A stretch of 64,000 nucleotides of DNA from Heliocidaris erythrogramma (taxonomy: Eukaryota; Echinodermata; Echinoidea; Camarodonta; Echinometridae), in the NCBI GenBank assembly GCA_025617745.1, contig CM046858.1:32868598-32932597 (forward strand). The letters are read 5' to 3'. How positions within the stretch are numbered: the stretch's first letter is position 1; each line of letters begins with the position of its first letter. This document shows, piece after piece, positions 3,365 through 23,278 of this stretch. The translations under genes were made by a program, and so were the position numbers. The notes under the pieces are model-generated. The model was not told the DNA's origin. It ran no database searches and saw only the letters and a list, made by a program, of their open reading frames with translations.

Positions 3365-3690
3365 ATCATAAATATTTGCTATATATATTATATTATATTA
3401 TTGTTTTGACCCACTCATTGTTTAAATCAATATAATATTCCAATTTGATATATTATGTTATATGATTTGTCTCATGTTAGTCCTATTATGATTCTCTATT
3501 GCATTGTTTATATCAATATGATATCCAGTTTGATGTAATGTTATATAATTTGTCACATGTTGAACATGAGTAGTGACATATATATGATTTTCTATTTCAT
3601 TATTTACATCAATATGGTAACCACTCTGATAATGTTATATAATTTGTCACAGGTTCAACCTGAGTAGTAGTATTATGATTTGCTATATTT
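3365..3690 (+). repeat. About 110-bp tandem units in the LINE 3' end
   Basis: Three diverged units share the pattern ATNTCATTGTTTAxATCAATAT followed by TGTTATATxATTTGTC. Units begin near 3412, 3500 and 3595. They lie between the last coding remnant and the terminal AATAAA-containing tail, which is a usual place for 3' UTR repeats in LINEs. Confidence 0.65.
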
Positions 3691-3815
3691 TCTCTCTTTC
3701 ATCCATTTGATTCCATTTGATTGTTACTTTTCTTTATACTTAATGCTTTGTATTGTAAAACAAAATATTGATGTCAATGTCAATGAAGTTTCTCAATAAA
3801 ATACCAATACAAACA

Positions 3816-4480: not shown

Positions 4481-4482
4481 AT

Positions 4483-4765
4483 AGACCGCTTCTGTAATGT
4501 ATACAAATTTATGCACATGTATTCTCTGAGCACCTAGTGACGAGCTATTCCATTAACCTGCTGTTTATAAATGAGCCTCAATGCTTGGAAACCAGTTTGC
4601 ATACATTATTTGTTGCTATGTCCGGCAAGCTTTCAGGTTGTCAAGCACAACTTTTGTTTGAAAGGTATGTATAAAATTTGCATACATTACCGAAGCGGTC
4701 TATGGTCTATGGTCTGTGGTATTCATTTTAGGCAACGCGCTATTGCAGAGTGTACTACGCAATAA
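4483..4765 (+). repeat. Dispersed repeat family A, copy 1
   Basis: The segment begins with AGACCGCTTCTGTAATGTAT and runs through TTGTTGCTATGTCCGGCAAG to an inverted match, ACCGAAGCGGTCTA, near 4690. Related copies lie at 5600-5780, 36612-37150 (split by an insertion), 37300-37530 and 61440-61625. The inverted ends and small size suggest a non-autonomous DNA element. No coding capacity is seen. Confidence 0.6.
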
Positions 4766-4879
4766 ATGTTTTCGTTGAAACTGATAACATAAACATTATT
4801 AACATCTCATTTGTTGTTTATTGATATCTTATTGGCTTTCACTTGTGAAATTGATTGCGAGATCATGTTTTTTATTAAC

Positions 4880-4963
4880 ACCCCAACACTAGCCACACAA
4901 TGCGTCAATTCAAAGGCCAACTGTTGGTCTTTGAATTGACGCATTGTGTGGTTAGTGTTGGGG
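4880..4963. repeat. Near-perfect hairpin inside the foldback left arm
   Basis: An arm containing CCCCAACACTAGCCACACAA is followed a few bases after its end by its reverse complement, giving about 40 paired bases with one or two mismatches. The matching region of the right arm (6445-6485) has only one copy, so the hairpin arose inside the left arm. Confidence 0.8.
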
Positions 4964-6002
4964 TTTGTCTTTTTCATGTGCTGTGTCATTAAGGAATATG
5001 TAATGTCATTGTGCTGTTTGGATGCCCTGCTGACTGGGCCTTATCATATAAAATTTCTTGAAATGAAAACAAAAATGTATTGACAAATACAAGAACATAT
5101 ACAAGGACATGATATATTGAAGAATACGGACATGAACGGAAATGATATCATTGTAAGGGGATACAACAGAACAATAAAGAACCTTAAAAAAATTACTACA
5201 TAGAAGCCCATGGAAATAAGATTTTTGTGTGTGTTTGTGTAAGGGGGTGCGGATGGATTGTGTATGTGTGCTCGTTTTATCGGAAATCACCAACGCTTGT
5301 CCCCCAATGAAATTGATCGATCGGATTCTGAATTTGAAAGCCCGAATATTTTCGCGGGCGTGCCCTGTATGAATTTGAGCGCACGTTCATGAATTGTAAT
5401 GGAAAAAGTATAAAATTGACCGGGAGAACCTATATTATGTCAGTGATTTGAAAGTATCCATAATGGTAACATATGTTCAATTATTGGCGTGATATTGATG
5501 AGGTTATTTATTATTTGTTTTGATTTATAATATAGGTTTCCCCGGTCAATTTCATACTTTTTCCATTCCAATAGACCTGTTTACTAGTGTATTTCAATTT
5601 ATGCATGTTTCTCTCCAGAATCCTTAGTTACCAACTATTTGGTGCACCTGCTATGCATAATGGCGTCTCTATAGATGGAATCCATTTTGCATACATTAGT
5701 TGTTGCTATGTCCGGCAAGCCTCTGGCAAGCTTTCGAGTCGTCAAGAGAAACTTTTGTATAAAATTAGTAAATAGGTCTATTCATGAACGTGCTTTCAAA
5801 TTCACTCAGCGCACACCCGCGAAATTATTCGGACTTTCAAATTCAAAATCCGATCGATCAATTTCATTTATGGCACTCTTATTTCCTTTCCGTAAAATCA
5901 AAATCAGATAAAACGAGCACACATACACAATCCACCGGCACCCTTACACTATGTAGCTTCTATGTAGTTTCTATGTAGTTTCATAGGCTTCTATGTAATA
6001 TG

Positions 6003-6228
6003 CAGTGGCGTATCCAGGGGGTGGCGCAACAGGCGCCCCCCCCCCCATTTGCCGTCGTAAGTTGTTCATTAAATAGGCTTCAAAATTGGTCACATATAGG
6101 ATTATTTTGCATCTCAGCCCTTCTTCAGAAGCAAAAAATATCCAAAGCGGAGGGGGCACCCCCTCCCCCAGGACGGCGATCAATAATGCCTGGCGCCCCC
6201 CTATTGGGAAATCCTGGATACGCCCCTG
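6003..6228. mobile_element. hAT-like MITE nested in the foldback element
   Basis: The ends are CAGTGGCGTATCCAGG on the left and, read inward from the right, CAGGGGCGTATCCAGG. The same end type is seen in the element at 38649-39014, which has a perfect 8-bp duplication. Flanking octamers here (GTAATATG and GTATGCTT) are only partly alike, so the target duplication has decayed or the ends are off by a base or two. It interrupts the right arm and is therefore younger than the arm. Confidence 0.65.
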
Positions 6229-7001
6229 GTATGCTTATTTGTTAAAGGTTCCTATCATGTCCTTATATGTTCGTGTATTCTTCAATATATCATGTTCTTG
6301 TATATGTTCATGTATTCTTCAATACTTTTTTTCATTTCAAGAAACTTAATGATAAGGCTCAGTCAGCAGTCCATCTAAACAACACAACGACATTTCTAAC
6401 TTATACTCCTTGATGACACCACACTTAAAGAAAGAGACAACACTCCAACACTAACCACACAATGCATCAACTGAAAGACCAACTAATAAACAACATGATC
6501 TCACAATCTCAAAAGTGGAGCCAATAAGATATCAATAAACAACAAATAAGATGTTTATAATGTTCATGTTATCACTTTCAACGAAAACATTATTTTATTG
6601 CATAATCCTTTAAGATATTGGACTAAAGCTTGATAATGAAGCCCAATTTATTCAAAACTAAGTGAAAAGACCCACAGAGACCCCAGGCTAAGTTTTAAAT
6701 TGAATGCACTTATTTGGAACATGGTTGCCTTTTCACGTATATGAATGACCAACGAGATTCCGTCGCCGGCTTGAAATGATTTGAATGACCCTAATGAACA
6801 ATTGATTGCTATTTAAATAACCGGATTATGAATTTGAAAGCGGATTCAGTGCTGCGAGCGTGAAATGCGTGAAATTGAATGCTCGGAATATGAAATTAAA
6901 TCACAAAATGGGGAGCAGTTCTCTGGTTTCTTTGGCGTAGTAAGGACTGTCTTTTAATACACCGAGACTGCTAGTGTGACCACCCGTCGACAGTATTCAT
7001 T

Positions 7002-7008
7002 TATAAAA
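7002..7008 (+). promoter_or_regulatory. TATAAAA motif upstream of the first receptor exon
   Basis: A TATAAAA lies 38 bases before the ATG at 7046. That would place transcription start near 7030 with a very short leader. It matters only if the coding region starts at 7046. The competing view is that exon 7086-7430 is spliced to an upstream signal-peptide exon, in which case this is chance in AT-rich DNA. Confidence 0.25.
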
Positions 7009-7045
7009 CTGAAGTGGATGTTTTTTCTCAAGTAAATTTTAGAAA

Positions 7046-7430
7046 ATGTATCTTAAGCTGGTAAGCACAATTCTGACTTTTTCAGGATCCGTTGCTTTGA
7101 GTGTTACGAGTGGAGGACCAGTTACCACCTTCACAGGCGGATCCTCCGAGCTGACATGCTCATTCTCTCCTATCGATTCACAAGGGTCATCGTTTGCTTG
7201 GTCATTCGATGGTCAAAATGGAAACAGCGGACAGATCGGCACCTGTGACATCACACAATGTACGCCGGCAAAACCATTACAACACCAACTGGTCATATCG
7301 ACCGATGATGGCATTGGTATGATGATACTCACGATTACTAATACTCAATTATCGGATACTGGGAATTACACCTGTTTGGTGTCGACTAGTGAGGATGCTC
7401 AGTCAGCCCTGGTGCAACTCAATGTCTCTG
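7046..7430 (+). CDS. Receptor exon 1: V-like Ig domain, possible signal peptide
   Basis: The Ig fold is marked by Cys38, Trp52, Asp104, Tyr108 and Cys110 (numbered from ATG 7046), with LSDTGNYTC as the F-strand signature and a second Cys pair (67 and 72). The donor is G|GTAAGA at 7430. Two starts compete. One is ATG 7046, with an in-frame TAG at 7040 and a hydrophobic stretch LVSTILTFSGSVALSV that could be a signal peptide. The other is an acceptor at 7085 (CTGACTTTTTCAG, with a branch-point-like CTGAC) in phase 1 like the other exons. I slightly favour the acceptor, with an unseen upstream signal-peptide exon. Confidence 0.85.
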
Positions 7431-10400
7431 GTAAGAAAACAATGAAGTAATTATCTGGAGCAGGGTAAGAAATTTCTTTAGCCCAATGATTATAACTTTT
7501 ATATTTGATTCATTATCAAAATACACTGATAGAATAGATGTGTATTTTATTTTGCAAAAAGACAAAAACAAAAACATAAACATAATAATAAACAAATAAA
7601 AAGAATATGACAAATGATATAACAAATATTAAGGAAGTACATATGCTCTCGTTTTAGATATTACGTAATATAATTTGCTGATAGAAAAAGAAAACATTCG
7701 GAAGACATACTGAATGATAGGTAATACTGAAATATTCAGCTGCTGTCCCTGAAAAAGTTATGTTAAACGTAACAACTGAACTGGAGTCGGTATGAGAAAG
7801 CAGTTATTGAAAACACAAGTTTTTCGCTGTAGGATTCTCTCTCTCTCTCTCTCTTTTTTTTTGTTTTGTTGGGGGGGGGGGGGGGGGGGGGGGGGGTCAG
7901 GGAACAAGGGTTGACGAATAGAAATGCTATTATATAAAAGAAATAAAAATTACTGTCGGTCCCGACGAGAATGGGATAATGATAATAATAATATGATAAT
8001 GATGATACTAATACTCCTACTACTACTACTAATAGTCATAGTGCCAATAATAATAATATTAATAATAATAATAGTTAAATATCATAATTGATAGGATTGA
8101 AGTAAATTGAATATGTCATAAAGAAAATGTGAGAAAATTACAATGCCCCGACCGGGAATCGAACCCGGGACCCTGGATTACATGACCAGTGCTCTACCAA
8201 CTGAGCTATCCGGGCTCCCGTCGAAGCAAAGTAACAATCTCACATATAGCCCCTCTCTTTCCATCGAGCGTAGGGGGTACATCCATACCAAGGTCCATCG
8301 TACGCTATAATGGCCTACCAATGAGACAGGTCTTCCCTCTAAAGTCGGGCAAATCTATGCCAACGAATTTCTATAGAGGACAATTTAAATTTGTAATTAA
8401 ATATCATAATTGATAGGATTGAAGTAAATTGAATATGTCATAAAGAAAATGTGAGAAAATTACAATGCCCCGACCGGGAATCGAACCCGGGACCCTGGAT
8501 TACATGACCAGTGCTCTACCAACTGAGCTATCCGGGCTCCCGTCGAAGCAAAGTAACAATCTCACATATAGCCCCTCTCTTTCCATCGAGCGTAGGGGGT
8601 ACATCCATACCAAGGTCCATCGTACGCTATAATGGCCTACCAATGAGACAGGTCTTCCCTCTAAAGTCGGGCAAATCTATGCCAACGAATTTCTATAGAG
8701 GACAATTTAAATTTGTAATTAAATATCATAATTGATAGGATTGAAGTAAATTGAATATGTCATAAAGAAAATGTGAGAAAATTACAATGCCCCGACCGGG
8801 ATTCGAACCCGGGACCCTGGATTACATGACCAGTGCTCTACCAACTGAGCTATCCGGGCTCCCGTCGAAGCAAAGTAACAATCTCACATATAGCCCCTCT
8901 CTTTCCATCGAGCGTAGGGGGTACATCCATACCAAGGTCCATCGTACGCTATAATGGCCTACCAATGAGACAGGTCTTCCCTCTAAATAAGAAAATTAAT
9001 TGATCAATCTACCAGTCATAATGCCGTGCGTTCTTTAGTTCTATATCCCGTATTGATTATTGTGACGGGCTTCACTCTATATTGCCTCGACTCAATTAAA
9101 TCTTGCGCAACGACTCGGGCTGCAGATTGGTGCTTCAGGTTTCTAGGAACCGCCCATCTCAGCCACTCTTGAACCCATTACATTGTCCTCCTTTGAAACA
9201 ACGGACTATTTTTTAATTACTCTTGTTTGTCTAAATCCTTATAAGGCTCCAGAATATTTGGATACCTATTTGAATTTATATACATCTGGTCAATTCCACA
9301 GTAACGGAAGGACAATCACACACAAACTGTATCTAAATGTCCTTCCGTTACCGTGGAATTAATAACCATCTATCAGGAGATTGAGGTCATCCAGTGATCC
9401 TCTCCGTCTCACATATCAGTTACTCGCACCTTGGCCGGTGATAGGACATTCACTGTGTCTGCTTCAAAATACTGGAATGATTTATCAATTACAATTAGAC
9501 AGTCTTCATCAGTCAATGCCTTCATAAAGGTCTTGAAAGCCCATTTCTTTAGCAATTCGTAGTTGTAACGTTGTTTTTCTTACTACATGTATTTATAATT
9601 CTTTAAATGTTTTGGACCTCACGGGAAAAGCGCGGTTTAAGTAATAATAATAATGATAATAATAATTAACGGTGAAAATTTTACAAACATTGGAGACGCA
9701 TAATTTATTGTCATGAAGGGGATTTAGCTAGGTATTAGCTAGCTAGTGGTGAACCTATCCACCCGTTTGCAAGAAAATTAGATTTCTTTTACTTCTTGAC
9801 TGCACATTACTAGGATTTAATTCAGGTTTCCTCATATTATAAAGCCCCTGGAAGCTACAGACATATCCTTTACATTTTGGGTTCGTGGTTTTAACTATTT
9901 TTAATGAAACAGCCAATTTAATTTATGAAGCCTATCTCCGTCATGGTCCCTCTCATGAAATTATATTTTACCACAATCATGACATTCGTGGCGGTAGTTA
10001 TACCCGCTGTACAATTATAAATGTCAGAAAATATTTCGGCGACATATTTGGGTGTGTAATGAAATCGCCAGTAGGGAACCATATTTTTTCATGTCGTCAT
10101 CAAAGTGTACAAATAACTCTATAACGACTAGAGAGCTTATTATATATCTAACACGTATTTATGCATGCACTTTTCTGATACGACGTCGAGACGTAAAAGA
10201 ATACAGGCGGGAAATGTACATGACTTGTTGTTCTTTAAAAGTAGCGCCTGTTGGGTCAGATGCAGTTTGTCATGCTTTTGCCAGTCATTGCTAATGCCAT
10301 CTATACCGATTTCTTGTGTAATATTATAATTATATGCCATATCCTGATCGAGAAAAAGTAATAAGGTTCAGCTGTCGTGGCCAAGTATAGAAAATAAAAC

Positions 10401-13400
10401 AATTTCCTGGCCGTATAATCCATAGGGATGATACTTTAATGAAAGTACAAATATAAACACGAAAGTGAATAATTTTCCACTTTAAATCATAATCTGCGTA
10501 GGTGGAAACATATATATATATATATATGTGTTTATAAAATAACACAATATAAGTTCTGATTCGGAATTGTAAATGTAGAGATTAATAGTAAACAAGTAAA
10601 AAATGATGAATAATTATTACGTGTAAACAAAAAGAGCGCGAAGCGCTAAAGCGCATCTAGCTCTATGGATACCGGCGGAACCATGGTGGAGAAAACTAAA
10701 AGAGAATAGAGCATAAAGAATGACGTCACAAAACGTCATAAAGAAACCAAGGGAAAGTACAGAAGAAGAAGAAAAAAGCAAGAGAGAAGGGACGTGAAAA
10801 AACACGTCATATAAATGAAGAACAGAAAAAGAGGGAGAGAGAAAAAAGGGAAAAGTGTCGAGAAAGAGTAGAGAGGAGTAAGAGTAGAGAGAGTGTAAAA
10901 GAGATAAACGGTGGAGAGAGAGAACAAAAAGTGAAAGTAGGGGGGGGGGGGGGGAGGAGAGAAGAGAAGATGAAAAGGAGGCAGTAGAAGAAATAAAAAA
11001 GAAGGAAAAGTTCTACGAAGTCTTAAATGAACAGGAAGTAACGTTTAAGCCAGAAGGATGTAATGTCCCAAGTTGGAAGGTGATTTTCTCTTCTTGCTTC
11101 TTCCTGTCGGCATCACTCCTCTGCACTTGAATACGCCGCAGACGTTGAAACTGTCCGTGGTGTGTCCGGGTAGGTTGAAATGACGGGCTACCGTTACGGG
11201 AAGTCCTTGCATGTTGAGGTGGATGGATCGGAGGTGTTCGGTGACACGATCAGCCAGTCGACGTTTGGTTTCTCCTACATAGTATTTGTTGCAGACAGGG
11301 AACAGATCCTCGTTCTTTCAGTTTGGTGTCATTGCTAAGATGAGAACGCACCAATATATTTCTTAGGCTCCGGCCTCCTCTGAAAGCTATGCGAGGTGGT
11401 TCTATGAAGATAGTGGAGGTTCAGGGGTTCTCTTGTAGTGACTTCAAGTTTCTTCTTATCATCGACCATGTTACTGCAGTTGTGTGATCATAAGTGAAGA
11501 TGAGGGGTGTCCTTGGGCTGCTTATTTTGGTGCTGGGCTTCAATGTGTCCTCTCTACTATTCCTGGTGATCTTCTCAAGAGACTTGTCAGTGATATCTGG
11601 AGGAGGGCTGGAGGATAGCTTCTGTTCGGAAATAAATTCTTCATTTCCCTGCAACGTCGTTCAAAGTCATCTTGGTTGCTACACAAACGTCGTAGTCTTG
11701 AAAGCTGAGAGTATGGGAGAGCCTTCTTGCAAGAAGGTGGGTGTGAAGACTGATAGTTTAAGTAGCTGTGAGCATCGGTGGATTTGTAGTACACACTGGT
11801 ATCCACGCGTCCTCTACTCGTAGTGATGCTGGTATCCAGAAAAGGTGCCGTTGTGTCAGAAATGGTGTGGGTAAATGACAGTGCTGGATGAGGAGATCAT
11901 AAGTTCCTCCCTAGAGCAAGTGGCTATTCCAAAATAATCGTCGATGTATTTCATCAGAAGCAGAGGTTTAGGACCTTCATAAGTAGATAGCATCTGGTTC
12001 TCAGTATATCCCAGAAAGAGACATGCATAAGATTATTGATCTCGTACAATTTCTATGAGACGCAGAATAGTGAAGTCATCTGGTCTATCCAGTGATGGGT
12101 TAGCCTCTAGGAAATGTCATCTAGCTTGTGGGCCATTTTGTTTAGGTGTGTTGGTATACAGAGATTTCACATCCATCCTATCTGGCGGTAGGGTGACACT
12201 ATCAAGTAGGCCAAGGGCATCGGAGGAATCTTTGAAGTACGTAGGTAGAGAAGAGACACCGGTGAAAAGATGCTGTCCAGATACTTGCTTATCATTTCAG
12301 TAGGACAGTTGATGTTTGAAACAATCGGACGCCCCGGGTGTCTGGTTTATGGATCTTCGGTAGAAGTTAGAAGTTTTCGGGTTCTTCTGGATGAGATTCG
12401 ATGCTGAAGGTGGTAAGTTGTCCTTTCGGATGAGATATCATTGACGTTCTCTTTTACAGTATGTTGATGACTGGGTGTAGGATCCTGATCAAGCCTTTCA
12501 TAAAAATCAGAATCACCAAGATGGCGAAGCTTCGTATAAATCACGCCAGACCACATCAGCACCTCCCATGTCTGCAGGCTTGATAACATGGTCTGGGTTT
12601 GTAAACAAATTTTTAGGCGTTACTCCCAGTGTTAAAGATCGTATGCTCGATCTGTAATGAAACTCACAAGTCAGAGAAAATTGGAACCAGCGGGATTCGA
12701 ACCTGTCATCTACTGCTTGCCGGGCAGCGACTTAAAGGGATACTCAACCGCAGATTGTGGACGTTTTAATGCCGCGAGAGGGCACCGTGATCGTTACCTG
12801 ATCATGCCGTTGCCCCTCGGGGCGCAAACCTCGGATAGACTGGTTGCCGCACAAACATGCACGCTCCGCCTGAGCTCGAGTTCTCGTGCGAGATTCGGTC
12901 GGCTTCGTGCAGTCGGAATGTATTACCACTTAGTCCAACGGACGCGTTCGACGCACAAACTTTGTGTACGAGTGAATGGAGCTTACGCAATCCTGACTTT
13001 CCCGACGGTCGACCGGTGGCGTATCCCTTTAACCACCAGGCTATTCTGGTTCACGGCCAAGTCACGATGAACTGGAAATCAAATACCTGAGATCCTCTTC
13101 TTTCTGACTCATTAATATTCAACGGTCCGCCGTGGACAATTGTTAGTAAATAAATAAAGAAGCTTAATGGGAGGAATTTTAATTTGTAAACAAATTTTTA
13201 GGCGTTACTCCCAGTGTTAATTTTTTCTGACTTGTGATTTTCATTACAGATCGAGCATACGATCTTTAACACTGGGAGTAACGCCTAAAAATTTGTTTAC
13301 AAATTAAAATTCCTCCCATTAAGCTTCGTTATTTATTTACTAATATTCTGGGTTGTTTCTAAGAGATTTCAAAGCGGATTGTTCCTTCTTGGCGAGGTTA

Positions 13401-16400
13401 GTAGATCTAGTGCTAGGTTAGTAGATCTAGTACGAGCTTTGAAATTGATAGTCTCAATAGTCTGAATGAAAATAAACTTGAAAAAGGCCAGCTAGGTGCC
13501 GAAAGCTTGTGAATGCACCTAGTGGCCTGCTTCATTCCGTTCCATCATTTCAGTTCACATATCTCAATTTAACATGGTTCCACCGAACGGTACATACATT
13601 CACCATTCTCTATCTATCATTCTACAAAATAATACACTTTCACTTACCTTTCTTTTGCAGGTGTATTTCATCATGCCTTTGTGAGAAAACACTTGACAGT
13701 GACTATCCGACATAGCAATATCTATTGAAATGTTAATATTTTCTGGATGGTGATTGACAAGTGATGTCACAAGGGGAATGTTGGTTTGCAGCTTTCTTGT
13801 GAGTGGATCCCAGTAATCTGAAGAAAAATACTGAAACTCATTATAAAATATATGTCATGTATATTTTGCCACATAAATGATGATCAGGGTATTATAATCA
13901 ACAAAGGTTAACATGCATTTGCTTTGCATGGGCCCTTTAAGTATCTAAATAGAATCTGTACCTGCAGACTAGAGAGGGCCGGTGGTATTCCCGAAATCAT
14001 GACCCTGGGAAAAGAATGCTGTTGGGGAAAAAACTGCCCCCACACCTTTCGAACAATCCTGCCATCGGCCCCTGATCTGTCTTCCTGATTTTTTTTTAGA
14101 GAGAGATAGGATTTCAGAAAAAACATTTTTATCTTACCCCACTTGATCATGGTTGTCTTCCTCCAACCGACTTGGAAATATAGAAAGTGTGAAAATAATT
14201 ATAAATGGATTAAATAGAAACAAAAACAAAAACAAAAACGATGCGTTTTTAATATGAACGGATTCCAGCTCATGCAATTGTGGCATTTCATTGAGAAGAA
14301 GTATCGTCGTGGTCGAACCTCTTCGTGACGGAAGAATTAGTCTTTGATTTGTTTAATCTCAAGTAATTTTCCTCTGTTCCAGAATGTTCAGTCCAGCAAC
14401 CTACGATAGTTTGTCCCGCCAATGTAGCTATCGGTTCCTTCATGGATCTATCATGTTCGTACACTACGCAACAGTCTCCCGGCCATTACACAAGGATCGC
14501 CAAGATATACCTTACGGACTCTTTGGAAACAGTATCTGCAAACGTACCTAATTTCAATATTGTTGTGAACGTCACCAGGGATAGCATTCCGAACGCAACC
14601 GACGTAAAAACCAGATTGAAACTAACCTCATTATGCTGTAGGAGTGAATCTTCTCTCACATGCAGGGCATCTGATGGAGAAAACTTATGCTCCGACGTCT
14701 GCATTACCAATGTCTTGTGTAAGTTAGCAGAGAATACATTATTTACCGTCTACTGACAGTATGGCATAGTGGTGCATTGAAAGATAATCCCTATCCTAGC
14801 CCAAATCCTAACTTTAACCCTAATGGGACTGTTGAGACATAGGACTAAGTGTAAGTGGGCTAATTAAAAATTACTGTATAAACAAGGTTTAAAAAGATTT
14901 CTCTCCAACTAAAAATGGTTTTTAGTATGTATGAATACATTCAGGTATTATTAAGCTGGATCTAGCTATTTTCTCTTTAGGGACGACGCTGGATGTTACG
15001 TGTAAAAGACTAAAGAGACAATTAAATTAAATATTAAAGCAGAACCCTGTGTAAGGGCAGATTAAAGAACCAGATATCTAAAGATCCAGTAAAGAAGTAG
15101 ACTTTTCATCCCGACCAATATTTCAGATAAGCTTTTACCATCGAATCTACAGATCCGCCTTCTGACCTTGCCTTGACACAGTCTCCACCCGGACCTTGGA
15201 TGGAAGGTTTGCGAGATGCCTCCATCCTCTGCAAGTCGAATGGCTTTCCTTCACCGACTGTCTCCTGGCAGAGAGTTGACGAGGAGGGTTCATCTGGGGT
15301 CGTCCTAGCGAATGGGACAGGATCATCTACGTTGAACTTCTCGGAGGTGCAGCGTCATTATGCTGGAGCATATCGATGTGAAGCTGATAATCACATGGAG
15401 TCGGTAGAAAGAAAAACGGCAAATATATCTGTACAATGTGAGCTCTTGGAGATTACATGCCTCTGTCATATCTCATACGAATAATATTAGGTCCCACTCA
15501 ATTATGCTCCAGTTTTCGTATTTTGCACTAGAGAAAATAAAATAGGGTAACCTTATTACTTTTAGAGCGAGTTGAAGAGAAGGGTGGATTTGTTAGTCAT
15601 TGACTTGTTACAGTCGTCTCAATCATGATAAATGAGGTATTGTTTTAGAAGTTTCTGCGTAAGAATCTGCGATTAACCTTAAGCAACCGCGTAGCCAGGA
15701 TTTAATTTTAGGGGCGGTTGTGAGCATTCGCGTGCTCCCCAGGTGGGTGGGTGCGAAGCACGAAAGCTCTGACGGAACAAATTTGAGAGAAAGATAACGG
15801 CTCGTAGCACCCTTTTTAGGCGGAAAGTTAGTTCGGCGCTCTGACTGCTTTTCAATTATTTTTTGACGCAATACTGCACTGTATGTAACAGGGGTGAGTG
15901 CAGGGAGAGGGAAGTTTTCCCTTTCCCACGCGAAGCGAGAAAACTTTGACATTTTAGCAAATTTTAGAAAGATAACGGCTCATAGCACTTTTTTTCCTCT
16001 CACTTCCCCCACTTTTTCGATCTCGCTTTCTCTCTCTTTTTTTCTTTTTTAGTTGGCGTTTTGGGGAGGGGGGGGGGGGGGGTCGACCGCCCGCTGGCTA
16101 CGCACCTGTAATTAAGCTAAAAAATAACATCGGGACAAGTGGAAATGTTGAAACCTTTGCATCTACGGCTCGTAAGTCACCAGAGCGTGGACCATGTAGT
16201 TACATTACAAACCAATATACATGTATACATTTTTTTTTTTTTTTGGGGGGGGGGGGGGGAGGTGAAAGTTCAGACTCAGCTGAAACTCGGGTGATAAAGT
16301 ATCTGGAAAGTAGTCTTACTGCTGACCTATTTGCATTATGTCAAACTGCACAACAAATATCTCACATTTGTAAATCATACGAGCATAACTTATACGGACC

Positions 16401-19400
16401 TAATTCTTACTCTCTTATTACGTTGATTCGGTTGTAATGTTAGCTTAACTCGTGTGTTTTGCGAACGAATTATAGGAAGCTTTTCAATTATTTTTTGTCG
16501 CAATACTGCACTGTATGTAACAGGGGTGAGTGCAGGGAGAGGGAAGTTTTCCCTTTCCCACGCGAAGCGAGAAAACTTTGACATTTTAGCAAATTTTAGA
16601 AAGATAACGGCTCATAGCACTTTTTTTCCTCTCACTTCCCCCACTTTTTCGATCTCGCTTTCTCTCTCTTTTTTTCTTTTTTAGTTGGCGTTTTGGGGAG
16701 GGGGGGGGGGGGGGGGGGTCGACCGCCCGCTGGCTACGCACCTGTAATTAAGCTTGCACACCACCAGTCGCCATACATACAACAGGCATATGCCTAGCCT
16801 TGAATTTTATATAAGGAATGTAAATTCATTTATTTAGGTTGCATTCCATTTCATATATACAGATCCTCCAAATATTGTTCGGCGGGTATCCGTCGTTCAC
16901 GCCAGTGAAGGAACTGTAGCGAGTCTCCGGTGTATATAGTCGACGCCAATCCAACGACATCAACAATGATCACGTGGTCCACTCCTAACCAATTTTATAT
17001 AAGGAATGTAAATTCATTTATTTAGGTTGCATTCCATTTCATATATACAGATCCTCCAAATATTGTTCGGCGGGTATCCGTCGTTCACGCCAATGAAGGA
17101 ACTGTAGCGAGTCTCCGGTGTATAGTCGACGCCAATCCAACGACGTCAACAGTGATCACGTGGTCCACTCCTAACCAATCACTGATCGCTACCGATGGCG
17201 CCTTCGTTATCAGGCACTCTGCGACCGAACTGGAAAGTCGACTATTGTTTACGAAGAAAGTCCACAAGGACATCTTTGGAAACTACACCTGTACCGCTGT
17301 CAATGCACTAGGGAGGATTTCGTTTGTCATCCAGCTAACTGGACACTGTAAGTTAAGATACATGGACCATATAATCCCTTTCTCTAATTTTGAACGTTTT
17401 ATTCGTCCTACCAGTTTATTTTCATAGAACAATGTCTACTGATGGCTCCTACCATTTTTCACTCACTCTTCAATGCTGCATGGTACTTAGCCAATGCGAT
17501 GGTTTTTACTTAGAATGAAAAAGGGAAACCTGATCACCTGATGCAAGTCGCAACTTATTTTTAACAAAGATGATTCATTTGTACAGGTTATGTCAATTCC
17601 AATTTACATTGACACTGACTGAAGTATTTATTGTTTGATATTTGTTTGTTTGTTACATCATACAAAAATAATGTAATATACAGGGGAAAAATATATAAAC
17701 ACATTTCCAGACATTAACAATTTACTTCTCAATACAAGAAATTGTGTATATGGGAAATTAAAATTTTTACAATTAACAGGATTTGTGAACACAGGAGACC
17801 GTCATCATGAGCGAGTTGCTTTATGTTGCAGGCGGCCGCAAATATTCAGAGGAGAACTAAATGCGAAATTAATGGCAGGAGTTATATGACATAGTTGGGT
17901 TTTTTAAATTTCTTTCACTTAAGGTTACCCAGATGCTCCGTACGACTTGCAAGTTGTCAACTACACAGAGTCGTCTTTAACTCTCTCCTGGACACCGGGT
18001 CAAGATGGCGGCTTACCGATGACCTTCACTGTTTCCTACTGCGTCAATGTCAGTCAGGTAGAGAGGTGCCGTAAAGAAGAGGGAGTAACGAATCCAAAGT
18101 TCACAATCGACGGGCTTAGTAGCTATACTCTGTACAGAATCACCTTGCTCGCGGAAAATAACATCGGGACAAGTGGAAATGTTGAAACCTTTGCATCTAC
18201 GGCTCGTAAGTCACCAGAGCGTGGACCATGTAGTTACATTACAAACCAATATACATGTATACATTTTTTTTTTTTTTTTTGGGGGGGGGGGGGGGGAGGT
18301 GAAAGTTCAGACTCAGCTGAAACTCGGGTGATAAAGTATCTGGAAAGTAGTCTTACTGCTGACCTATTTGCATTATGTCAAACTGCACAACAAATATCTC
18401 ACAATTTGTAAATCATACGAGCATAACTTATACGGACCTAATTCTTACTCTCTTATTACGTTGATTCGGTTGTAATGTTAGCTTAACTCGTGTGTTTTGC
18501 GAACGAATTATAGGAAGCACCCCCCCCCCCCCCCACCCGCTTCTGACCTTTACGAATGCTGAGTCGTATTAAAACGTGACAGGCTAAAACGCTTAGAATG
18601 CGCCCCTTAGCTGTAGATTTTGTAATCATGAGTGCATGTACAGGTTGGACAAAACATCCTATTTACGGGATTTTTTTTTCTTACAGCAGGGACATTGGAT
18701 GCGTTTGGTAAGTTTATGATCATATTTATTTTTTGAAAGGAAAAAAAACCCTATTATTTTAAAGCCAATGCCAAAATGCCTGGCCTCATTTGATAAAATA
18801 GCGCGTTGAGAAGACAAATGGCATAAAGGGTTTCCTTACACAATATTATAGTATCCTGTATATGGCAAAGTGTGAAAGTCACTATGAGGTAAAACTGACC
18901 CATCTTACTGCATTATGCCTTGCACGATTTTATCATATTAACAGCGAAATATAAACAGAAACTATGATATCCTTCCTGATTAAGTGAACGTCAAATGACG
19001 TTGGCAAAACATAAGAAGCTTCAGGAATTTCCATAAGTACATCATACTTTACGTTTCCGCTTCGTTTGTTAAATAAAAAAGTTGTGGAAAATCACGCATA
19101 GCATAGTCTATATTCACATTCTATTCCTTCATCAGGTATTACTGCTACGTATGATATGAAATCCGGAAGACTTGACATCTCGTCGACTGAAAGTGATACA
19201 AGTGACCTTTGCATCCATGCAGAGTTTCATGTTGGCGGATTGCGTAAAAAAAACGAGACGTGCTTACTTCCAGGTCAGACCGTGTACATCCGAAACGGCG
19301 CCAGAGAGCATCAGTTGTGGCTGGTTGTATGTGGGCGTGGCACGTGTAGCGTATCATCACGCGTGACCTATCGGGATAGCAGCGATGGAGGACGGAGTAT

Positions 19401-19567
19401 GTAAACAATTCTTCCAATCATCAATGAAAGAATCAAAAGATTGCTCAGTTCATATCATTTCACGAAAATAAAGACAACAGTTCAGTTCACCAGTTTTGAC
19501 AGTCTTGGACCAGCCCATATAAACGCTCCCACACTTAGAACACATACACGTACACACGTACGCACAC

Positions 19568-19647
<80 letters not shown>

Positions 19648-22600
19648 GCAAACAATAAATGGAGACACTGTAAAATTAGAATACGAATTTTCGCCCCTAG
19701 GGCTAGTATTTGATAAAGCCCTAGGGGCGAAACCTCGTATTTTAACTTGTTTGCGGAGCGTCTTCATTTATTGTTTGCGATTTACATTTCATCTCCCAGC
19801 AGAACTTCTATTTCTGATATATATATAGGTGTGTGTGTGTGTGTGGATGTGTGTGAGAGAAAGTGTGTACATACTTTATAATAATCGGAATTTCCACATC
19901 TTGAAACGGCCTGGGAGTTGTTTTTTTTTAATACTTGCTCTCTTATTACTTAGAAAAAAATTCGATTATTCTGAAACCCTGCTATATTTAGAAGGTATTT
20001 TTCAATGTAATGGTTTTAATAGGATTGTTTTTTTTAAATCATTATTTTCGAAATAATTAATTTTGTGTGATTTTTACCAGGGGTGCTTTTCATCATGGTT
20101 GTTACACTTGGCTGTTGTCTCGGAGTCATTCTGTTGGTAACGCTATTCATCTGCTTGTATCGCCTAACCCGAAAAAGACGATGTAAGAACCAATATCAAG
20201 GTCGCTCAATATAGATGTTGTCGTAAATCTATATTGATATGTGTAATCATTTCTTGCTGAAAATAATCATCTGCTTTTAAACAAAACTAATTCATGTCCT
20301 TTTACGAGACTAATCACTTTTCGATAACGCCTTAAAGAGCTCATATTGAGAAAAGAAATGGTATGCGTTTTTATTTGATGATATTAAAATCTGTGTATCA
20401 AAGAAAACAATCCTTTTAAAATTTTTCAAATAGCTCAACTAGAAATTGCAATTTTTTTTCAAATAAAACTCACCCTTTTGAGGGTTTGAAATTGTCTCGC
20501 AGTCCAATTCGGCAAAATGCTAGCCTGTCTATGCAAATTAGCACTGACGTCATTGGGTAGAGTCGTATGACCTCCGCGGCGTACTGCTGCACAGCATAGC
20601 ATGGACTGGCAACCGAGAGTGAAGAGAAACTTTGCTCGACATGATTTTGATACTTCAAAATTATGTTTCCAAATTTTATTAACCGAAATAGAAAGCCAAA
20701 TGCGATTCAGCGATTGGTCTCCACTTGCTGAACAATCCAGTTTGCGCACAAAACTATGCCGACGATCAATTCTCAATTATGTCCCGGGCCAGAAGCTCAG
20801 CGCATTTACGCTTTCTGGAAGCTGCTTACATTCAATCGCATGAACCTCTTCTGTGCAGACAAAAGGAGTTCGTCCAAGCTTTGCGATTGTTCTGAAATTA
20901 CGGCGTCTAGGTTGCGTCCGGGTTCACCGATTATAATGTAATTTGTTATATACCTGCGTGATAACCTGATGAGTGCAGGTCAAAAAGCTTCGTTATCATG
21001 TCTCTTTTTCGTGCCATATTGAAATAGAAATTATTTTTGCCCAATTGATCGTGGGCCCGGCAGCCACATCGACGTTGCTCTATCCTTTCAATTGTTGAAC
21101 GCCAAAACAATGTAGCCACAACTCCCATCTTTTAACGTCTTTTGGTATGACGCGGCCAAGGTTTGAACCCACGACCTCCCGATTGTGAGGCGGACGCTCT
21201 ACTGACTGAGCCAACACATCGTGTTGTTAAATATTATATGAAAACTAGTTTACATTTTAGCCTTGTATTTCGGGCCAGCTACATCTCCAAAGTCAATCTT
21301 GCAGTGACGTTCGAAGGCTGATTTTTCGAAATGGTCCCTACAATAGTACAAATTCGTGCATGCTTGCTGTGTGTTGCTGCTGGGAAATCTTTTCGCCGAA
21401 TTTTCACAAAATCACCCACAAATTCCGTTGCTTATTGAACAAACACAACGCAGTTTTGTGGCATTTTGCAACAAAACGTAAGGATTCCCCCAAAAGAAAG
21501 CGACTCTCGTTGATGTTGGTTTTTTTTACACACGATTATAATAGCGCGCGTTATGCACCGGATGAATTGACCTGGATGAATTGATCAACTCTACCCAGTG
21601 ACGTCATAGCAGGTCAACCCCGCTTCGACGTTTATCGGTCTGTTTGAGAAATCTGGCTCAATATGTGTCGGATCTAGCCGGATTAGACACAATACATTCT
21701 ATAGGTCCGCTTTGTTTGTGCACAATGGCGGACCCCTAGAATGTATTGTGTCTTACCAGGCTAGATCCGCCACTGTAAGGGCAATAATCAAGGGTACATT
21801 TTAGGCAAAAAAATCTATTTTATTTGCTAAAATTGATGGAACCTTTATTTGAATATGTTTATTATTTATTTAGAAACCATATTTCTTGCAATTGGGGGTC
21901 GGAAAAAATCAACATATGAGCTCTTCTTTAATTTTCTGAAGGTAATCTTGCTTTTATTAAATTTTATATATTTTTTTTGTTATCAAATTTTCAATTGAAA
22001 TTTCACACCTATTTTGGGAGACCAAGTATTATACTTTTACACCTTTGTCTATTTTCTTTAAGCTTGGAATCGTGTGGACTTGGACGGCATGTCGAGTATG
22101 AAACGGGCTCTTCCCGTACTCCCAACCTGTGCCCTTGCGATAGGAATTGGTTCCTCGTCTCTCAGTAAGGATGATGATGCAGAACTTGTAAGTACAATTT
22201 GTTGGATGGAAAAGTCTCCATTTTACATGATCATTATGTCTCTTTGCAACATTACTGCAGTACTCATACTTGTAGGAAATTTACTTATCCTTTATGTTAG
22301 CTTAACTGAATTGCTTCAACGGAAGAGAACGGCAAAGGTTAAAAACACAACGCACACAACAACAACTAAGAGATTAAAAAAAATATTACTTTTTCCATCA
22401 TGCCCAATAAATCAGTGAGCCGATAAGAAACTCGCCTTTACTTATAACTCATGGCAAACGGAAGCTAATACTACATAATAAAATCAGTTGTCTTTTAAAA
22501 TATTTTGTCATGTTTGTCGAGCTAAAATGGCGGGGTAATCTCGCTAGTCATAAGGACCGCTATTCATAAGGACCGCTATCCATAACGCGTGATTAAATGA

Positions 22601-23278
22601 ATACCGGTCCTTATGAATAGCGAGCAAACCATAGACAAATTACCTCGCTATTCATCAGGACCTCCATTCATAAGGACCGCTGGTCATAACTATCCATAAG
22701 GACCGCTATTCATAATGCGTGTAAAATGAATAGCTGTCCTTATGAATAGCGAGCGGACCCCAAAAAGGCTACCCTGTCTAAATAAAACGAAAACAGAAGC
22801 ATGTCATATTAGATAATCACTCTAAATGACCGCTTTTTTCCTATATTGTCAGCAGAGCTATGATGCCATAGAGAACATAAAGGGTAAGGAAATTAGTGAC
22901 AACCAGCATAACTTGAGCATAAATGCCTCTAACAACGCCACCGCTCAATCACCAAAACATTCTCAAGAGGAAGTACGAGAAGGCTACATGCCGATGGATG
23001 CAGCCAAGGCAACCAATGCTCCCGACAAACATGACAAAGGCATCTACACCACTCACTTGCCCCGTGGGCAGAGCGGACCAAATCAACCTGAGGCAACTGC
23101 TTACAGAAACACGATCGACCACACTGTCGTGACTAGCACGGGTGACAAGCCTGTAGATCTGATTCACATTGAAGTAAACGACGACACATACACTGTCACG
23201 GAACGCAACAAGGAAAACGGTTCTGAGTACATGGTACCGACCAGTCCTGGATGCGATATTAAAGACACTGCTCTGTAA
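7046..23278 (+). CDS. Ig-superfamily single-pass receptor, ten-exon gene model
   Basis: The exons are 7046 (or 7086)-7430, 14383-14718, 15153-15437, 17051-17347, 17924-18205, 18687-18707, 19136-19396, 20081-20182, 22063-22187 and 22853-23278. All have GT-AG borders and agreeing phases: phase 1 throughout, until the last junction at phase 0. Joined, they give 2520 nt, 839 residues plus stop. Order: V-like Ig, cysteine-rich Ig, two Ig domains, FN3, microexon, four-cysteine domain, transmembrane helix, tail with six tyrosines and C-terminal TAL. It probably acts at the cell surface in adhesion or signalling. Ig plus one FN3 plus SH2 and PDZ motifs recalls nephrin/Kirrel proteins, but that is an analogy and orthology is not shown. 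The start is the weakest point. Confidence 0.85.
7431..8074. other. Receptor intron 1, first part: simple sequence
   Basis: The intron holds a CT run (about 7836-7853), a T-rich stretch, a run of 26 G at 7871-7896, and TAATAA-rich sequence at 7976-8072. No coding exon was found. Confidence 0.6.
8145..8215 (-). tRNA. tRNA-like core, array copy 1 (Thr-TGT-like, probable pseudogene)
   Basis: It folds as 71 nt: acceptor GCCCGGA with TCGGGGC (one G-G mismatch), D stem GCTC/GAGC, anticodon arm CTGGT-CATGTAA-TCCAG, and T arm CCGGG/CCCGG. The loop places TGT at 34-36, but base 33 is A instead of the invariant T and pair 31-39 is T-T. It has A and B boxes, so it could be transcribed, but as a decoding tRNA it looks defective. 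The T loop reads TTCGATT. Confidence 0.5.
8467..8537 (-). tRNA. tRNA-like core, array copy 2
   Basis: Identical in sequence to the copy 322 bases to the left, including A at position 33 and the TTCGATT T loop. It was duplicated as part of the tandem unit. Confidence 0.5.
8789..8859 (-). tRNA. tRNA-like core, array copy 3
   Basis: Same as the other two array copies except that the T loop is TTCGAAT, the form also seen in the inverted copy at 58815. It is therefore probably nearer the ancestral sequence. Confidence 0.5.
9030..9660 (+). pseudogene. 3' fragment of an L2/CR1-type LINE
   Basis: Broken frames read SRIDYCDGLHSILPRLN (about 9046-9096), then a fragment around YLDTYLNLYTSGQF, then RSSSDPLRLTYQLLAP and YWNDLSITIRQSSSV, and finally FIKVLKAHFF (about 9520-9550). 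These are the conserved C-terminal blocks of L2/CR1 reverse transcriptases. The end is a TAATAATAATGATAAT microsatellite tail, as usual for that group. A hairpin at 9292-9360 interrupts it. Confidence 0.75.
9292..9360. mobile_element. Small hairpin MITE inside the LINE fragment
   Basis: The arms are AATTCCACAGTAACGGAAGG and, inverted, AATTCCACGGTAACGGAAGG, around a loop of about 20 bases. It lies between two recognisable LINE blocks, so it inserted after the LINE. Confidence 0.6.
9661..11088. other. Intron 1, middle part: AT-rich and purine-rich DNA
   Basis: Contains a short TA microsatellite (about 10509-10527), a purine-rich tract at 10740-10990 with GAGAGA and GAAGAA stretches and a G run near 10940-10953. 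Open stretches lack motifs and splice context. No gene is supported. Confidence 0.5.
11089..12596 (-). pseudogene. Penelope-like retroelement with GIY-YIG endonuclease, decayed
   Basis: On the minus strand the order is FYERLDQDPTP (about 12478-12512), PKIHKP (12340-12361), PTEMISKYLDSI (12269-12307), KYIDDYFGIA with the catalytic Asp pair (about 11925-11951), then KYYVGETKRRLADRVTEHL (about 11240-11296), a GIY-YIG nuclease block. A reverse transcriptase followed by GIY-YIG is the hallmark of Penelope-like elements. Several frameshifts break it. The right end is cut by the tRNA-derived element beginning near 12597. Confidence 0.85.
12597..13160 (-). mobile_element. tRNA-derived SINE-like element, split by a MITE
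   Basis: It matches the element at 36815-37096: GTAAACAAATTTTTAGGCG, then ACTCCCAGTGTTAAAGATCG, then a tRNA-like core, then GATCCTCTTCTTTCTGACTC. The tRNA-like core (12684-13052) is interrupted by 293 bases plus a duplicated TTAA. The right boundary is approximate. Confidence 0.75.
12736..13028. mobile_element. TTAA-specific (piggyBac-type) MITE, 293 bp
   Basis: It is flanked by TTAA on both sides (12732-12735 and 13029-13032). The ends are AGGGATACTCAACCG and, inverted from the right, AGGGATACGCCACCG (13 of 15 matching). The uninterrupted relative at 36910-36981 has a single TTAA at the same place, so both the insertion and its target duplication are visible within the window. TTAA duplication is typical of piggyBac transposases. 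No transposase is encoded. Confidence 0.9.
13160..13330. repeat. Inverted pair of SINE-element ends
   Basis: AATTTGTAAACAAATTTTTA and GGCGTTACTCCCAGTGTTAA near 13182-13220 recur in reverse complement at 13265-13310, with flanking CTTAATGGGAGGAATTTT also inverted. The pair consists of end sequences of the neighbouring tRNA-derived element and would fold into a hairpin with 55-60 paired bases. Confidence 0.8.
13331..14382. other. Intron 1, last part
   Basis: A short direct repeat GGTTAGTAGATCTAGT occurs twice (13396-13430). Otherwise it is unremarkable AT-rich intron up to the acceptor at 14382. No exon is supported. Confidence 0.5.
14383..14718 (+). CDS. Receptor exon 2: cysteine-rich atypical Ig-like domain
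   Basis: The acceptor is CTGTTCCAG and the donor T|GTAAGT, phase 1 to 1, 112 codons. The segment has eight cysteines (130, 139, 153, a CC pair, then TC, LC and VC near the end) and no tryptophan. It lacks the DxGxYxC signature, so it departs from the standard Ig fold while keeping the exon size and phase of an Ig exon. NVT and NAT are possible N-glycosylation sites. Confidence 0.85.
14719..15152. other. Receptor intron 2
   Basis: A 434-base intron. It includes CCTAGCCCAAATCCTAACTT and CCTAAT-type simple sequence. No other feature is seen. Confidence 0.6.
15153..15437 (+). CDS. Receptor exon 3: Ig domain
   Basis: A standard Ig domain of 95 codons has B-strand cysteine ILCKS, C-strand tryptophan VSWQR, and F-strand YAGAYRCEA. 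It begins YPPSDLAL and ends ISVQ. The acceptor is ATCTACAG and the donor T|GTGAGC, phase 1 to 1. Its ending joins cleanly to exon 4, which begins YPPN in the same phase, a typical Ig-to-Ig junction. Confidence 0.9.
15680..16117. mobile_element. Repeat family X, copy 1 (intron 3)
   Basis: The ends resemble inverted repeats: GCGTAGCCAGGATTTAATTT on the left, and CCGCTGGCTACGCACCTG on the right, whose complement begins CAGGTGCGTAGCCAG. Inside is a pyrimidine-rich block ending in a G run (about 16066-16082). A second partial copy lies at 16479-16754 and a diverged one near 53262-53410. It is non-coding. Confidence 0.65.
16121..16478 (+). repeat. Copy of the FN3 exon end and its intron (from 18155)
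   Basis: AAAATAACATCGGGACAAGT through the splice donor and on to GCGAACGAATTATAGGAAGC matches 18155 to about 18519 almost base for base, apart from homopolymer length. It carries the last 51 bases of the FN3 exon with its donor but no acceptor, so it cannot work as an exon. Repeat X sequence flanks it on both sides. Confidence 0.9.
16479..16754. mobile_element. Repeat family X, copy 2 (partial)
   Basis: From TTTTCAATTATTTTTTGTCG to CTGGCTACGCACCTG it repeats 15851-16110 nearly identically, with a longer G run (about 16699-16718). Its left end is missing. The near identity suggests it was copied together with the neighbouring exon fragment. Confidence 0.8.
16805..16992 (+). pseudogene. Dead upstream copy of the exon 4 start (188-bp tandem duplication)
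   Basis: Bases 16805-16992 repeat in 16993-17180, covering the intron end, the acceptor and the first 130 bases of exon 4. This copy has TGTATATAG where the intact copy has TGTATAG, so splicing to its acceptor (16862) meets an in-frame TAG at 16937-16939. There is no donor consensus in this copy at the expected exon end. Confidence 0.9.
17051..17347 (+). CDS. Receptor exon 4: Ig domain (intact downstream copy)
   Basis: A standard Ig domain has ASLRCIV, VITWSTP and FGNYTCTA as its Cys, Trp and Cys signatures. The acceptor is ATATACAG and the donor T|GTAAGT, phase 1 to 1, 99 codons. Its first 130 bases and the preceding intron end are duplicated just upstream (16805-16992), where a 2-bp insertion creates a stop. 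This downstream copy is the one that keeps the frame. Confidence 0.9.
17348..17923. other. Receptor intron 4
   Basis: AT-rich intron of 576 bases between the exon 4 donor and exon 5 acceptor. Nothing else is recognised. Confidence 0.6.
17924..18205 (+). CDS. Receptor exon 5: fibronectin type III domain
   Basis: The FN3 fold is marked by PYDLQVVNYTESSLTLSWTP, DGGLPMTFTVSYCV, and the L..YTLYRITLLAENNIG block near the end. The acceptor is ACTTAAG and the donor C|GTAAGT, phase 1 to 1, 94 codons. The last 51 bases of the exon plus the following intron are copied at 16121-16478. Confidence 0.9.
18206..18686. other. Receptor intron 5 (source of the duplicated segment)
   Basis: It begins with the exon 5 donor and carries a T run, a G run near 18281-18297 and a C run near 18519-18534. 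The first 310 bases are the source or sister of 16172-16478. Confidence 0.7.
18687..18707 (+). CDS. Receptor exon 6: 21-nt microexon
   Basis: A candidate microexon lies between TTTTTTTTTCTTACAG and G|GTAAGT. It codes about seven residues (PGTLDAF) in phase 1 to 1, so inclusion or skipping keeps the frame. The acceptor is a tandem CAGCAG, allowing an 18-nt alternative. With or without it, exon 5 and exon 7 join in frame, so only transcript data can show it is used. Confidence 0.6.
18708..19135. other. Receptor intron 6
   Basis: A 428-base AT-rich intron between the microexon and exon 7. No other feature is seen. Confidence 0.5.
19136..19396 (+). CDS. Receptor exon 7: unassigned four-cysteine juxtamembrane domain
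   Basis: The acceptor is TTCATCAG and the donor A|GTATGT, phase 1 to 1, 87 codons. The reading is GITATYDMKSGRLDISS at the start and RVTYRDSSDGGR at the end, with four cysteines in DLCIH, ETCLL, VVCGR and GTCSV. Alternating hydrophobic residues suggest a beta-sandwich. It is neither a standard Ig nor a clear FN3 domain. It sits directly before the transmembrane exon. Confidence 0.8.
19577..19646. repeat. TA microsatellite
   Basis: About 70 bases of TATATA with one TACATA interruption, preceded by CACACATACATG-type sequence. It lies in intron 7, next to a hairpin element. Confidence 0.95.
19647..19779. mobile_element. Hairpin MITE with CGCAAACAATAAATG ends
   Basis: The terminal inverted repeat CGCAAACAATAAATG is at 19647-19661 and inverted at 19765-19779. 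Inside, TTTTCGCCCCTAGGGCT is followed by AGCCCTAGGGGCGAAA. It is flanked on the left by the TA microsatellite, a likely insertion target. Confidence 0.8.
20081..20182 (+). CDS. Receptor exon 8: transmembrane helix
   Basis: The 34-codon exon reads VLFIMVVTLGCCLGVILL, continues hydrophobic to LFICLY, then gives the basic stop-transfer RLTRKRR. This fixes the topology as outside-to-inside, with all Ig and FN3 domains extracellular. The acceptor is TTTTTACCAG and the donor T|GTAAGA, phase 1 to 1. Confidence 0.92.
20545..21612. mobile_element. Inverted-repeat element in intron 8 with tRNA-like segment
   Basis: TGACGTCATTGGGTAGAGT near 20551 recurs inverted as ACTCTACCCAGTGACGTCA near 21585-21604. 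Between them lie a GC-richer block and a tRNA-like segment at 21149-21220. The inverted ends suggest a composite or non-autonomous element. Its boundaries are approximate. Confidence 0.5.
21149..21220 (-). repeat. tRNA-Val(CAC)-like, SINE-type remnant
   Basis: On the minus strand, GGCTCAGTCAGTAGAGC (A box) and GGGTTCAAACC (B box) frame an anticodon loop CTCACAA, giving CAC. The acceptor and T stems carry mismatches, so it is not a credible working tRNA. It most likely derives from a tRNA-based SINE. Confidence 0.6.
21669..21770. mobile_element. Hairpin element in intron 8
   Basis: CGGATCTAGCCGGATTAGAC and ACAATACATTCTATAGGTCC are mirrored to the right as GGACCCCTAGAATGTATTGT and GTCTTACCAGGCTAGATCCG. 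About 42 bases pair with a few mismatches around a short loop. Confidence 0.8.
22063..22187 (+). CDS. Receptor exon 9: membrane-proximal cytoplasmic segment
   Basis: The acceptor is TATTTTCTTTAAG and the donor CTT|GTAAGTA, 125 nt, phase 1 to 0. The frame reads WNRVDLDGMSSMKRALP and ends SLSKDDDAEL. It is the phase converter: exon 8 ends in phase 1 and the last exon begins in phase 0, so an exon of this kind is required. A weaker internal donor at 22163 (TCA|GTAAGG) would leave the wrong phase for the last exon. Confidence 0.75.
22188..22418 (+). other. Open frame through intron 9 with a hydrophobic stretch
   Basis: If the exon 9 donor is not used, the frame stays open for 76 further codons to a stop at 22416. 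It adds FYMIIMSLCNITAVLILVG and NLLILYVSL, a possible second membrane helix. This could be an intron-retention isoform or chance in T-rich DNA. The strong GTAAGTA donor favours normal splicing. Confidence 0.25.
22528..22775. mobile_element. Modular foldback element with ATTCATAAGGACC modules, copy 1
   Basis: The short module ATTCATAAGGACCGCTATTC and its complement alternate several times, ending in TATGAATAGCGAGCGGACCC. Related copies are inside the triplicated units at 29318-29560 and 34894-35135. It lies in the last intron of the receptor gene. Confidence 0.75.
22853..23278 (+). CDS. Receptor exon 10: tyrosine-rich signalling tail
   Basis: The acceptor is TTGTCAG followed by CAG, again a tandem NAG acceptor. 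The exon codes 141 residues and ends at TAA 23276-23278. Tyrosine motifs are YDAI (22859), YMPM (22985), IYTTHL (23045), YRNT (23102), TYTVT (23189) and YMVP (23228). By known SH2 preferences, YMPM suits PI3K p85, YRN suits Grb2 and YMVP suits Crk. The C-terminus DTAL fits a class I PDZ ligand. The region is polar and likely disordered. Confidence 0.9.
   Translation, partial: QSYDAIENIKGKEISDNQHNLSINASNNATAQSPKHSQEEVREGYMPMDAAKATNAPDKHDKGIYTTHLPRGQSGPNQPEATAYRNTIDHTVVTSTGDKPVDLIHIEVNDDTYTVTERNKENGSEYMVPTSPGCDIKDTAL

Follow-up and report, generated by a model that had tools for sequence, protein, structure and literature searches.

The window analysed here, a 64,000-nucleotide stretch of the Heliocidaris erythrogramma genome (C6:32868598-32932597), contains a gene predicted to encode a type I membrane receptor that combines a V-like Ig domain, a Cys-rich Ig-like domain, two I-set Ig domains, a fibronectin type III (FN3) domain and a four-Cys domain with a transmembrane (TM) segment and a tail; taken jointly with the family membership and the signalling mechanism proposed below, this is a reading that we favour with moderate confidence. 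By itself, the gene looks like an ordinary Ig receptor whose docking sites form an unusual set, and it is the surrounding family, rather than the window gene alone, that raises its interest. Sequence comparison across the 1.06 Gb assembly (26 contigs) places it, as a divergent member, in a larger receptor family, part of which forms a tandem array on another contig. COX1, carried by contig C24, is open over 541 residues under translation table 9, with AAA at the generally invariant Asn of QIYNVVVTAHA and of PRMNNMSFW and ATA at an Ile; this mitochondrial code, used by echinoderms and flatworms, agrees with an echinoderm origin without singling it out.

Gene model and domain architecture

Nine exons, all with GT-AG ends, extend from 7046 (or 7086) to 23278 and join into a translation of 832 residues without internal stops. 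The first seven junctions are in phase 1 and the eighth is in phase 0, and removal of the exon at 22063-22187 breaks the frame with 13 stops. The number of exons, their GT-AG ends and their consistent phases bear out the original prediction of a single receptor gene whose exons join in one frame; its length of 839 residues fits a weaker alternative donor after position 20200 (CAAG/GTCGCT, with the slash marking the junction), which adds six residues to give 838 plus the stop, but not the GTAAGA at 20183, which we prefer as the exon 7 donor and which yields the 832-residue product. The exons and their contents are as follows.

7046..7430, forward strand: exon 1, V-like Ig domain (Pfam V-set, residues 25-127), possibly with the start Met
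14383..14718, forward strand: exon 2, Cys-rich domain of Ig-like character, unmatched in Pfam
15153..15437, forward strand: exon 3, Ig_3/I-set domain (Pfam and paralog matches)
17051..17347, forward strand: exon 4, I-set Ig domain (Pfam and paralog matches)
17924..18205, forward strand: exon 5, fibronectin type III domain (Pfam fn3, E 1.1e-10)
19136..19396, forward strand: exon 6, four-Cys domain (alignments and structure model)
20081..20182, forward strand: exon 7, transmembrane segment plus the basic residues RKRR (translation)
22063..22187 (125 bases), forward strand: exon 8, class I SH3-type motif RALPVLP, entered in phase 1 and left in phase 0
22853..23278, forward strand: exon 9, tail with YDAIEN, YMPM, IYTT, AYRN, DTYTV and EYMVP, ending in TAL, phase 0

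The Ig, V-set and fn3 models score above the Pfam cut-offs on the window product, and the predicted series of V-like Ig, Cys-rich, two Ig, FN3 and four-Cys domains was recovered in full, with both later Ig domains being of the I-set type. With the phase 1 acceptor TTTTTCAG/GA, exon 1 would begin at 7086, and the true signal peptide is therefore likely to be encoded by an upstream exon; a scan of positions 1-7087 gave only two overlapping weak candidates, near 4275-4333, and no convincing signal-peptide exon. The order of the cysteines in exon 2 (C..C..C..CC..C..LCSxxC) is, by eye, common to the window gene and its counterpart at C2:35.4 Mb (L041), and because the structure model of this exon is useless at a pLDDT of 32.6, we make no claim as to its fold. 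Identity of the exon 5 FN3 domain to its relatives is 33-47%. As for exon 6, all four Cys columns are kept in five of five sequences of one alignment (A2) and three of the four in seven of seven upon addition of two array members (A3); its model, which is of moderate quality, is a β-sandwich, and most, albeit not all, of the matches listed in its structural comparisons are of FN3 type; the four-Cys domain may perhaps be a divergent FN3.

Two truncated but near-identical duplicates lie inside the gene, one derived from the 5′ part of exon 4 (16803-16993), the other from the FN3 exon's 3′ end together with its intron (16121-16480), and intron 1 holds three tandem copies at 8072-9015, spaced by 322 bases and 92-100% identical over 300. 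The same intron also contains a reverse-strand open reading frame (11045-11317) that by eye resembles the GIY-YIG endonuclease of a Penelope-like element (Pfam E 0.11 only), and remains of a LINE-type element at 467-3047 of the window match reverse transcriptase (E 3.5e-10) and, weakly, endonuclease. In viral contigs, five stretches fit a pattern, none of which (0/5) was confirmed by tblastn.

Family plan and cytoplasmic tails

A genome search with the ectodomain, from exon 2 through the TM segment, gave 80 matches, eight of them in the window's own stretch and others at, among further places, C11:27.39-27.64 Mb, C2:29.9-31.2 Mb, C2:35.4 Mb, C2:36.4 Mb, C2:42 Mb and C19:31.9 Mb. The domain order, which the original prediction could not match, is not singular: L041 shares the nine exons and their phases with the window gene, with an open product of 838 residues, and the order is therefore a family plan. 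For L041, no first exon was found. L041-related V-like Ig domains occur at eight places in the C2 array. In an FN3 tree, from which the empty rows L018 and L021 were absent, the supports around the window gene are 0.705 and 0.001, so that its placement stays loose.

The tail of the window receptor, ~180 residues long, contains six tyrosines, in YDAI near its start, YMPM, YTTH, YRN, YTVT and YMVP, before the terminal TAL; the ITIM pattern has no match in it. YMxM or YxxM sites bind PI3K p85, YxxP sites Crk/CrkL and YxN sites Grb2, and the consensus of class I SH3 ligands is RxLPxLP, to which the exon 8 peptide MKRALPVLP conforms, a feature of the tail that the original prediction had not mentioned. 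When the tail was shuffled, the individual tyrosine motifs recurred with P values of 0.157 (YxxM), 0.30 (YxxP) and 0.36 (YxN), the presence of all three with P 0.016 and the SH3-type motif with P 0.0006. Because each tyrosine motif alone is unremarkable by composition, the evidential weight is placed on recurrence among paralogs. The window tail has itself as sole match in the genome (E up to 10), and the gene is thus single copy as to its tail.

At the position of exon 8, L041 has a phase 1-to-0 exon encoding SSRKLPTLP (motif RKLPTLP). Copies on C11 were examined piecewise, with products not joined, and three of the four contain a proline-rich open stretch (RPLPLPP or RQLPLPP; splice phases unchecked) between the TM and tail regions; none was found in the copy of L043, and the pattern applied did not pick up the TM exon of copy A. 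The L041 tail includes YDGLEL, YMHP, YLPM, YTDV and YSVP among others, and the C11 tails (L040, L043) include YASIDN, YYQM, DTYNVNT and YMTP or YLKP. In the same C11 cluster, the tail exon of L044 (C11:27.385-27.394 Mb) is disrupted, with YYQ followed by I and a stop and hence loss of the Met of YxxM; the tails of L040 and L043 are open.

Both YxxM and YxxP are present in all eight non-ITIM tails considered, namely those of the window gene, L041, L040, L043 and the array genes L046, L048, L057 and L058, with the assignments for the last three taken from translations instead of the shuffle script. This set leaves out the disrupted L044; L060, which has lost the Tyr of YxxM and keeps YASP, YVN and YVSP; L042, L050, L051, L059 and L061, for which no tail was found in the stretch fetched; and three weak array matches at 30.021, 30.097 and 30.143 Mb. 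The PI3K- and Crk-type motifs of the original prediction thus stand, as both recur in paralogous tails. Its Grb2-type motif fares less evenly, since outside the window YxN recurs in one subfamily only, as YTN or YIN in the YMxM class of the C2 array, and is missing in L041, L040 and L043. The PDZ-type end is not a family feature, with L041 ending in AVY, L040 in FRK and L043 in PCS.

Close copies keep most of their tyrosines, which favours the docking reading: five of six tyrosine columns are common to L040 and L043, the odd one lying outside the YxxM, YxxP and YxN motifs, and seven of nine are common to L046 and L048, where YVGP of L048, a YxxP match, is one of the two that differ. Less favourable to it are the dN/dS ratios of these two tail pairs, 0.60 and 0.68, respectively; those of three ITIM-type tail pairs are 0.21, 0.22 and 0.36. 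Out of 500 shuffles, the score of the tail alignment was reached by 49 for window/L041, 9 for window/L040, 98 for window/L046 and 53 for L041/L040, and in cross-class alignments by 16 for L040/L045 (ITIM-type) and 71 for L046/L045. Alignments between subfamilies are thus weak and unspecific, and it is the position and phase of the exons that argue for homology of the tails.

A tandem array with two classes of tail

The array at C2:29.93-31.24 Mb contains at least 16 FN3 relatives. Within it, genes L045-L049, L057 and L058 (C2:30.28-31.24 Mb) have near-identical ectodomains and tails that are either ITIM-like or of the YMxM/YxxP/YxN type, with tails having been assigned to ectodomains by position (same strand, downstream, within a few kb). 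Tails of the YMxM class (L046, L048, L057, L058) display YAEL, YEPL or YQPL, YMDM or YMNM, YVSP, YASA, YMEI or YMDI, YTN and YIN; in L046, an in-frame TAA follows VYTNTE and YIN lies beyond it, and a 71-base exon with the phases of exon 8 is without the SH3-type motif (RRETTSNTTTIPPVTTSKPPSQQ). Searching the genome with a YMxM-type tail returned eight matches, consisting of four strong ones, the continuation of one of these and three weak ones. An ITIM-type tail query gave 24 matches, five of them full-length in the C2 array. Two further array places (L052:190-1506 and L053:195-1718) each consist of a single open frame, 439 and 508 residues long, built from a repeat unit of the form DGLVYxxV/L...TVYASL, with 10 and 8 matches, respectively, to ITIM/ITSM-like patterns.

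Members of the two classes can be close in their ectodomains: between the ITIM-type gene at 30.858 Mb and the YMxM-type gene at 30.630 Mb, identities are 92/100 in Ig4, 92/96 in FN3, 69/81 in the four-Cys domain and 43/46 in the TM region, and among 12 cross-class pairs compared the FN3 identity ranges from 69/96 to 92/96. Tails of the two classes are identical at only 28/132 positions (31.231 versus 30.630 Mb). The reverse also occurs: the tails of two YMxM genes, at 31.217 and 30.630 Mb, are 74 and 80% identical to the query, yet these genes agree in only 43/94 positions of Ig4.

On the 3′ side of three YMxM tails are weak, 21-residue matches to the ITIM-type tail (L048:5702-5764, L057:5034-5096 and L058:5394-5456), with E values of 0.0006-0.006 in a small database and stops in two of them; these may be remnants of a tail that was lost or exchanged. 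Because like ectodomains carry unlike tails, like tails accompany unlike Ig4 domains and ITIM-type matches lie by YMxM tails, we infer that tails and ectodomains have probably been re-combined in the C2 array, as in paired receptors. As far as sequence can tell, the array thus has the anatomy of paired activating and inhibitory receptors, a description that applies to the array only, the window tail being without a copy.

Proposed function and relation to known systems

In the mechanism that we propose, binding of a ligand or a neighbouring cell by the Ig domains would cluster the receptor, and a Src-family kinase docked through its SH3 domain on RALPVLP would phosphorylate the tail. YMPM could then recruit PI3K p85, YMVP Crk/CrkL and, possibly, YRN Grb2, with the docked adaptors driving actin change, adhesion or activation; ITIM-type members of the array would oppose activation by recruiting SH2 phosphatases. 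Since one array of the family has a paired-receptor layout, an immune-type (activating or co-stimulatory) role appears more likely, by analogy, than a junctional one.

The principal alternative is a developmental adhesion receptor working in the manner of nephrin, Kirrel or sidekick, whose Ig domains make junctional contacts and whose SH2 adaptors remodel actin, with the array relatives representing a separate, later use. That the window tail is single copy and lies on another contig than the array agrees with this, as do the ectodomain of I-set Ig domains plus FN3 and the best PDB relatives, which are adhesion molecules and others, among them MDGA1, Dscam, titin, NCAM2 and RPTPs (60 of 225 matches listed). 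These PDB matches are, however, generic I-set domains, and the exon plan and some tail motifs are common to receptors of an expanding array, so that we regard an adhesion receptor as rather unlikely, if the most serious contender.

It is improbable that the receptor is real and its tail motifs coincidental, with tyrosines that do not serve as SH2 docking sites. Shuffles do yield all three tyrosine motifs in 1.6% of cases and each alone in 16-36%, and the tail alignments are weak and unspecific; but all eight quoted non-ITIM tails have both YxxM and YxxP, and RALPVLP, with its shuffle P of 0.0006, recurs in an L041 exon of the same position and phases. Less credible still is a decaying gene, in which the intronic duplications and repeats would mark a locus on its way out: the truncated duplicates of exon 4 and exon 5 sequence (16803-16993 and 16121-16480, respectively), as well as the disrupted tail of the C11 relative L044, would suit such a gene, but nine of nine exons are open and have GT-AG ends.

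With an activating or co-stimulatory receptor as the preferred reading, the family allows a broader proposal, which we advance tentatively and consider somewhat less likely than not to hold as a whole. Echinoderms may carry a germline-encoded paired Ig-receptor system, with a logic like that of KIR/CEACAM or of the Fester co-receptors (FcoR) of Botryllus, in which near-identical Ig-FN3 ectodomains encoded in a megabase array are combined with one of two kinds of tail: ITIM/ITSM-like ones, in some of which a motif pair is repeated many times in tandem, or ones with hemITAM-like and PI3K-, Crk- and Grb2-type sites. The window and C2:35.4 Mb genes, which share this exon plan and have an SH3 site in addition, would be divergent members situated outside the array, and the allograft responses of sea urchins and sea stars are a setting in which the family may act. 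Allorecognition loci of Botryllus and Hydractinia are described as encoding activating and inhibitory Ig receptors with SH2-docking tails in other forms than those of vertebrates (PMC12065747), and graft rejection has been reported in sea urchins and sea stars (PMC2248247). Among the literature matches listed, to the extent that their text was available and with subscription literature and preprints outside the scope, no echinoderm Ig-receptor family of this kind is named and no account was found of the receptors behind these allograft responses. If correct, the proposal would add a third invertebrate lineage with paired-receptor logic and provide candidate receptors for echinoderm graft rejection.

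Among known systems, nephrin has an ectodomain of eight or more Ig domains and one FN3. The likeness to nephrin/Kirrel put forward in the original prediction holds for the way of working, all being Ig receptors (nephrin also with FN3) with tyrosine-based SH2 docking, but not for the family: membership was rejected on domain counts, here four Ig-like exons, one FN3 and one four-Cys domain. The 60 PDB matches listed, out of 225, include neither nephrin nor Kirrel. CD28 and ICOS have a tail site of the YMNM/YMxM type, comparable to YMPM in the window gene and YMNM in L048; CD28, however, is a single V-type Ig domain with a short tail, and the four Ig-like domains, FN3 and four-Cys domain of the window product led us to reject membership of that family.

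The vertebrate paired receptors KIR, CEACAM and FcR-like resemble the C2 array, where a single cluster likewise combines near-identical ectodomains with tails of different classes. Their activating partner usually has a charged TM residue and an ITAM adaptor, whereas the hydrophobic stretches of L046, L048, L057 and L058, as read, are without any charged residue.

The nearest published analogue found is the FcoR family of Botryllus schlosseri, which is described as having 53 loci, with a V Ig domain, a sushi domain, two C2 Ig domains and tails with ITIM, hemITAM or core tyrosine motifs (PMC12065747). Both are multigene families of Ig receptors with tyrosine-motif tails in invertebrate deuterostomes. 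FcoR proteins have sushi domains, with FN3 not mentioned in the passages that describe them, whereas the window family has FN3 and four-Cys domains and the window tail is without an ITIM match; a sushi domain is missing from the Pfam families listed, 14 for the window product and 13 for L041, and membership of the FcoR family was rejected on these grounds. Tails of ITIM or hemITAM type within a clustered family, which characterize FcoR, were found by pattern in the C2 array relatives only; the window tail does not have this character. By analogy, the family to which the window gene belongs may nevertheless work along lines similar to those of FcoR.
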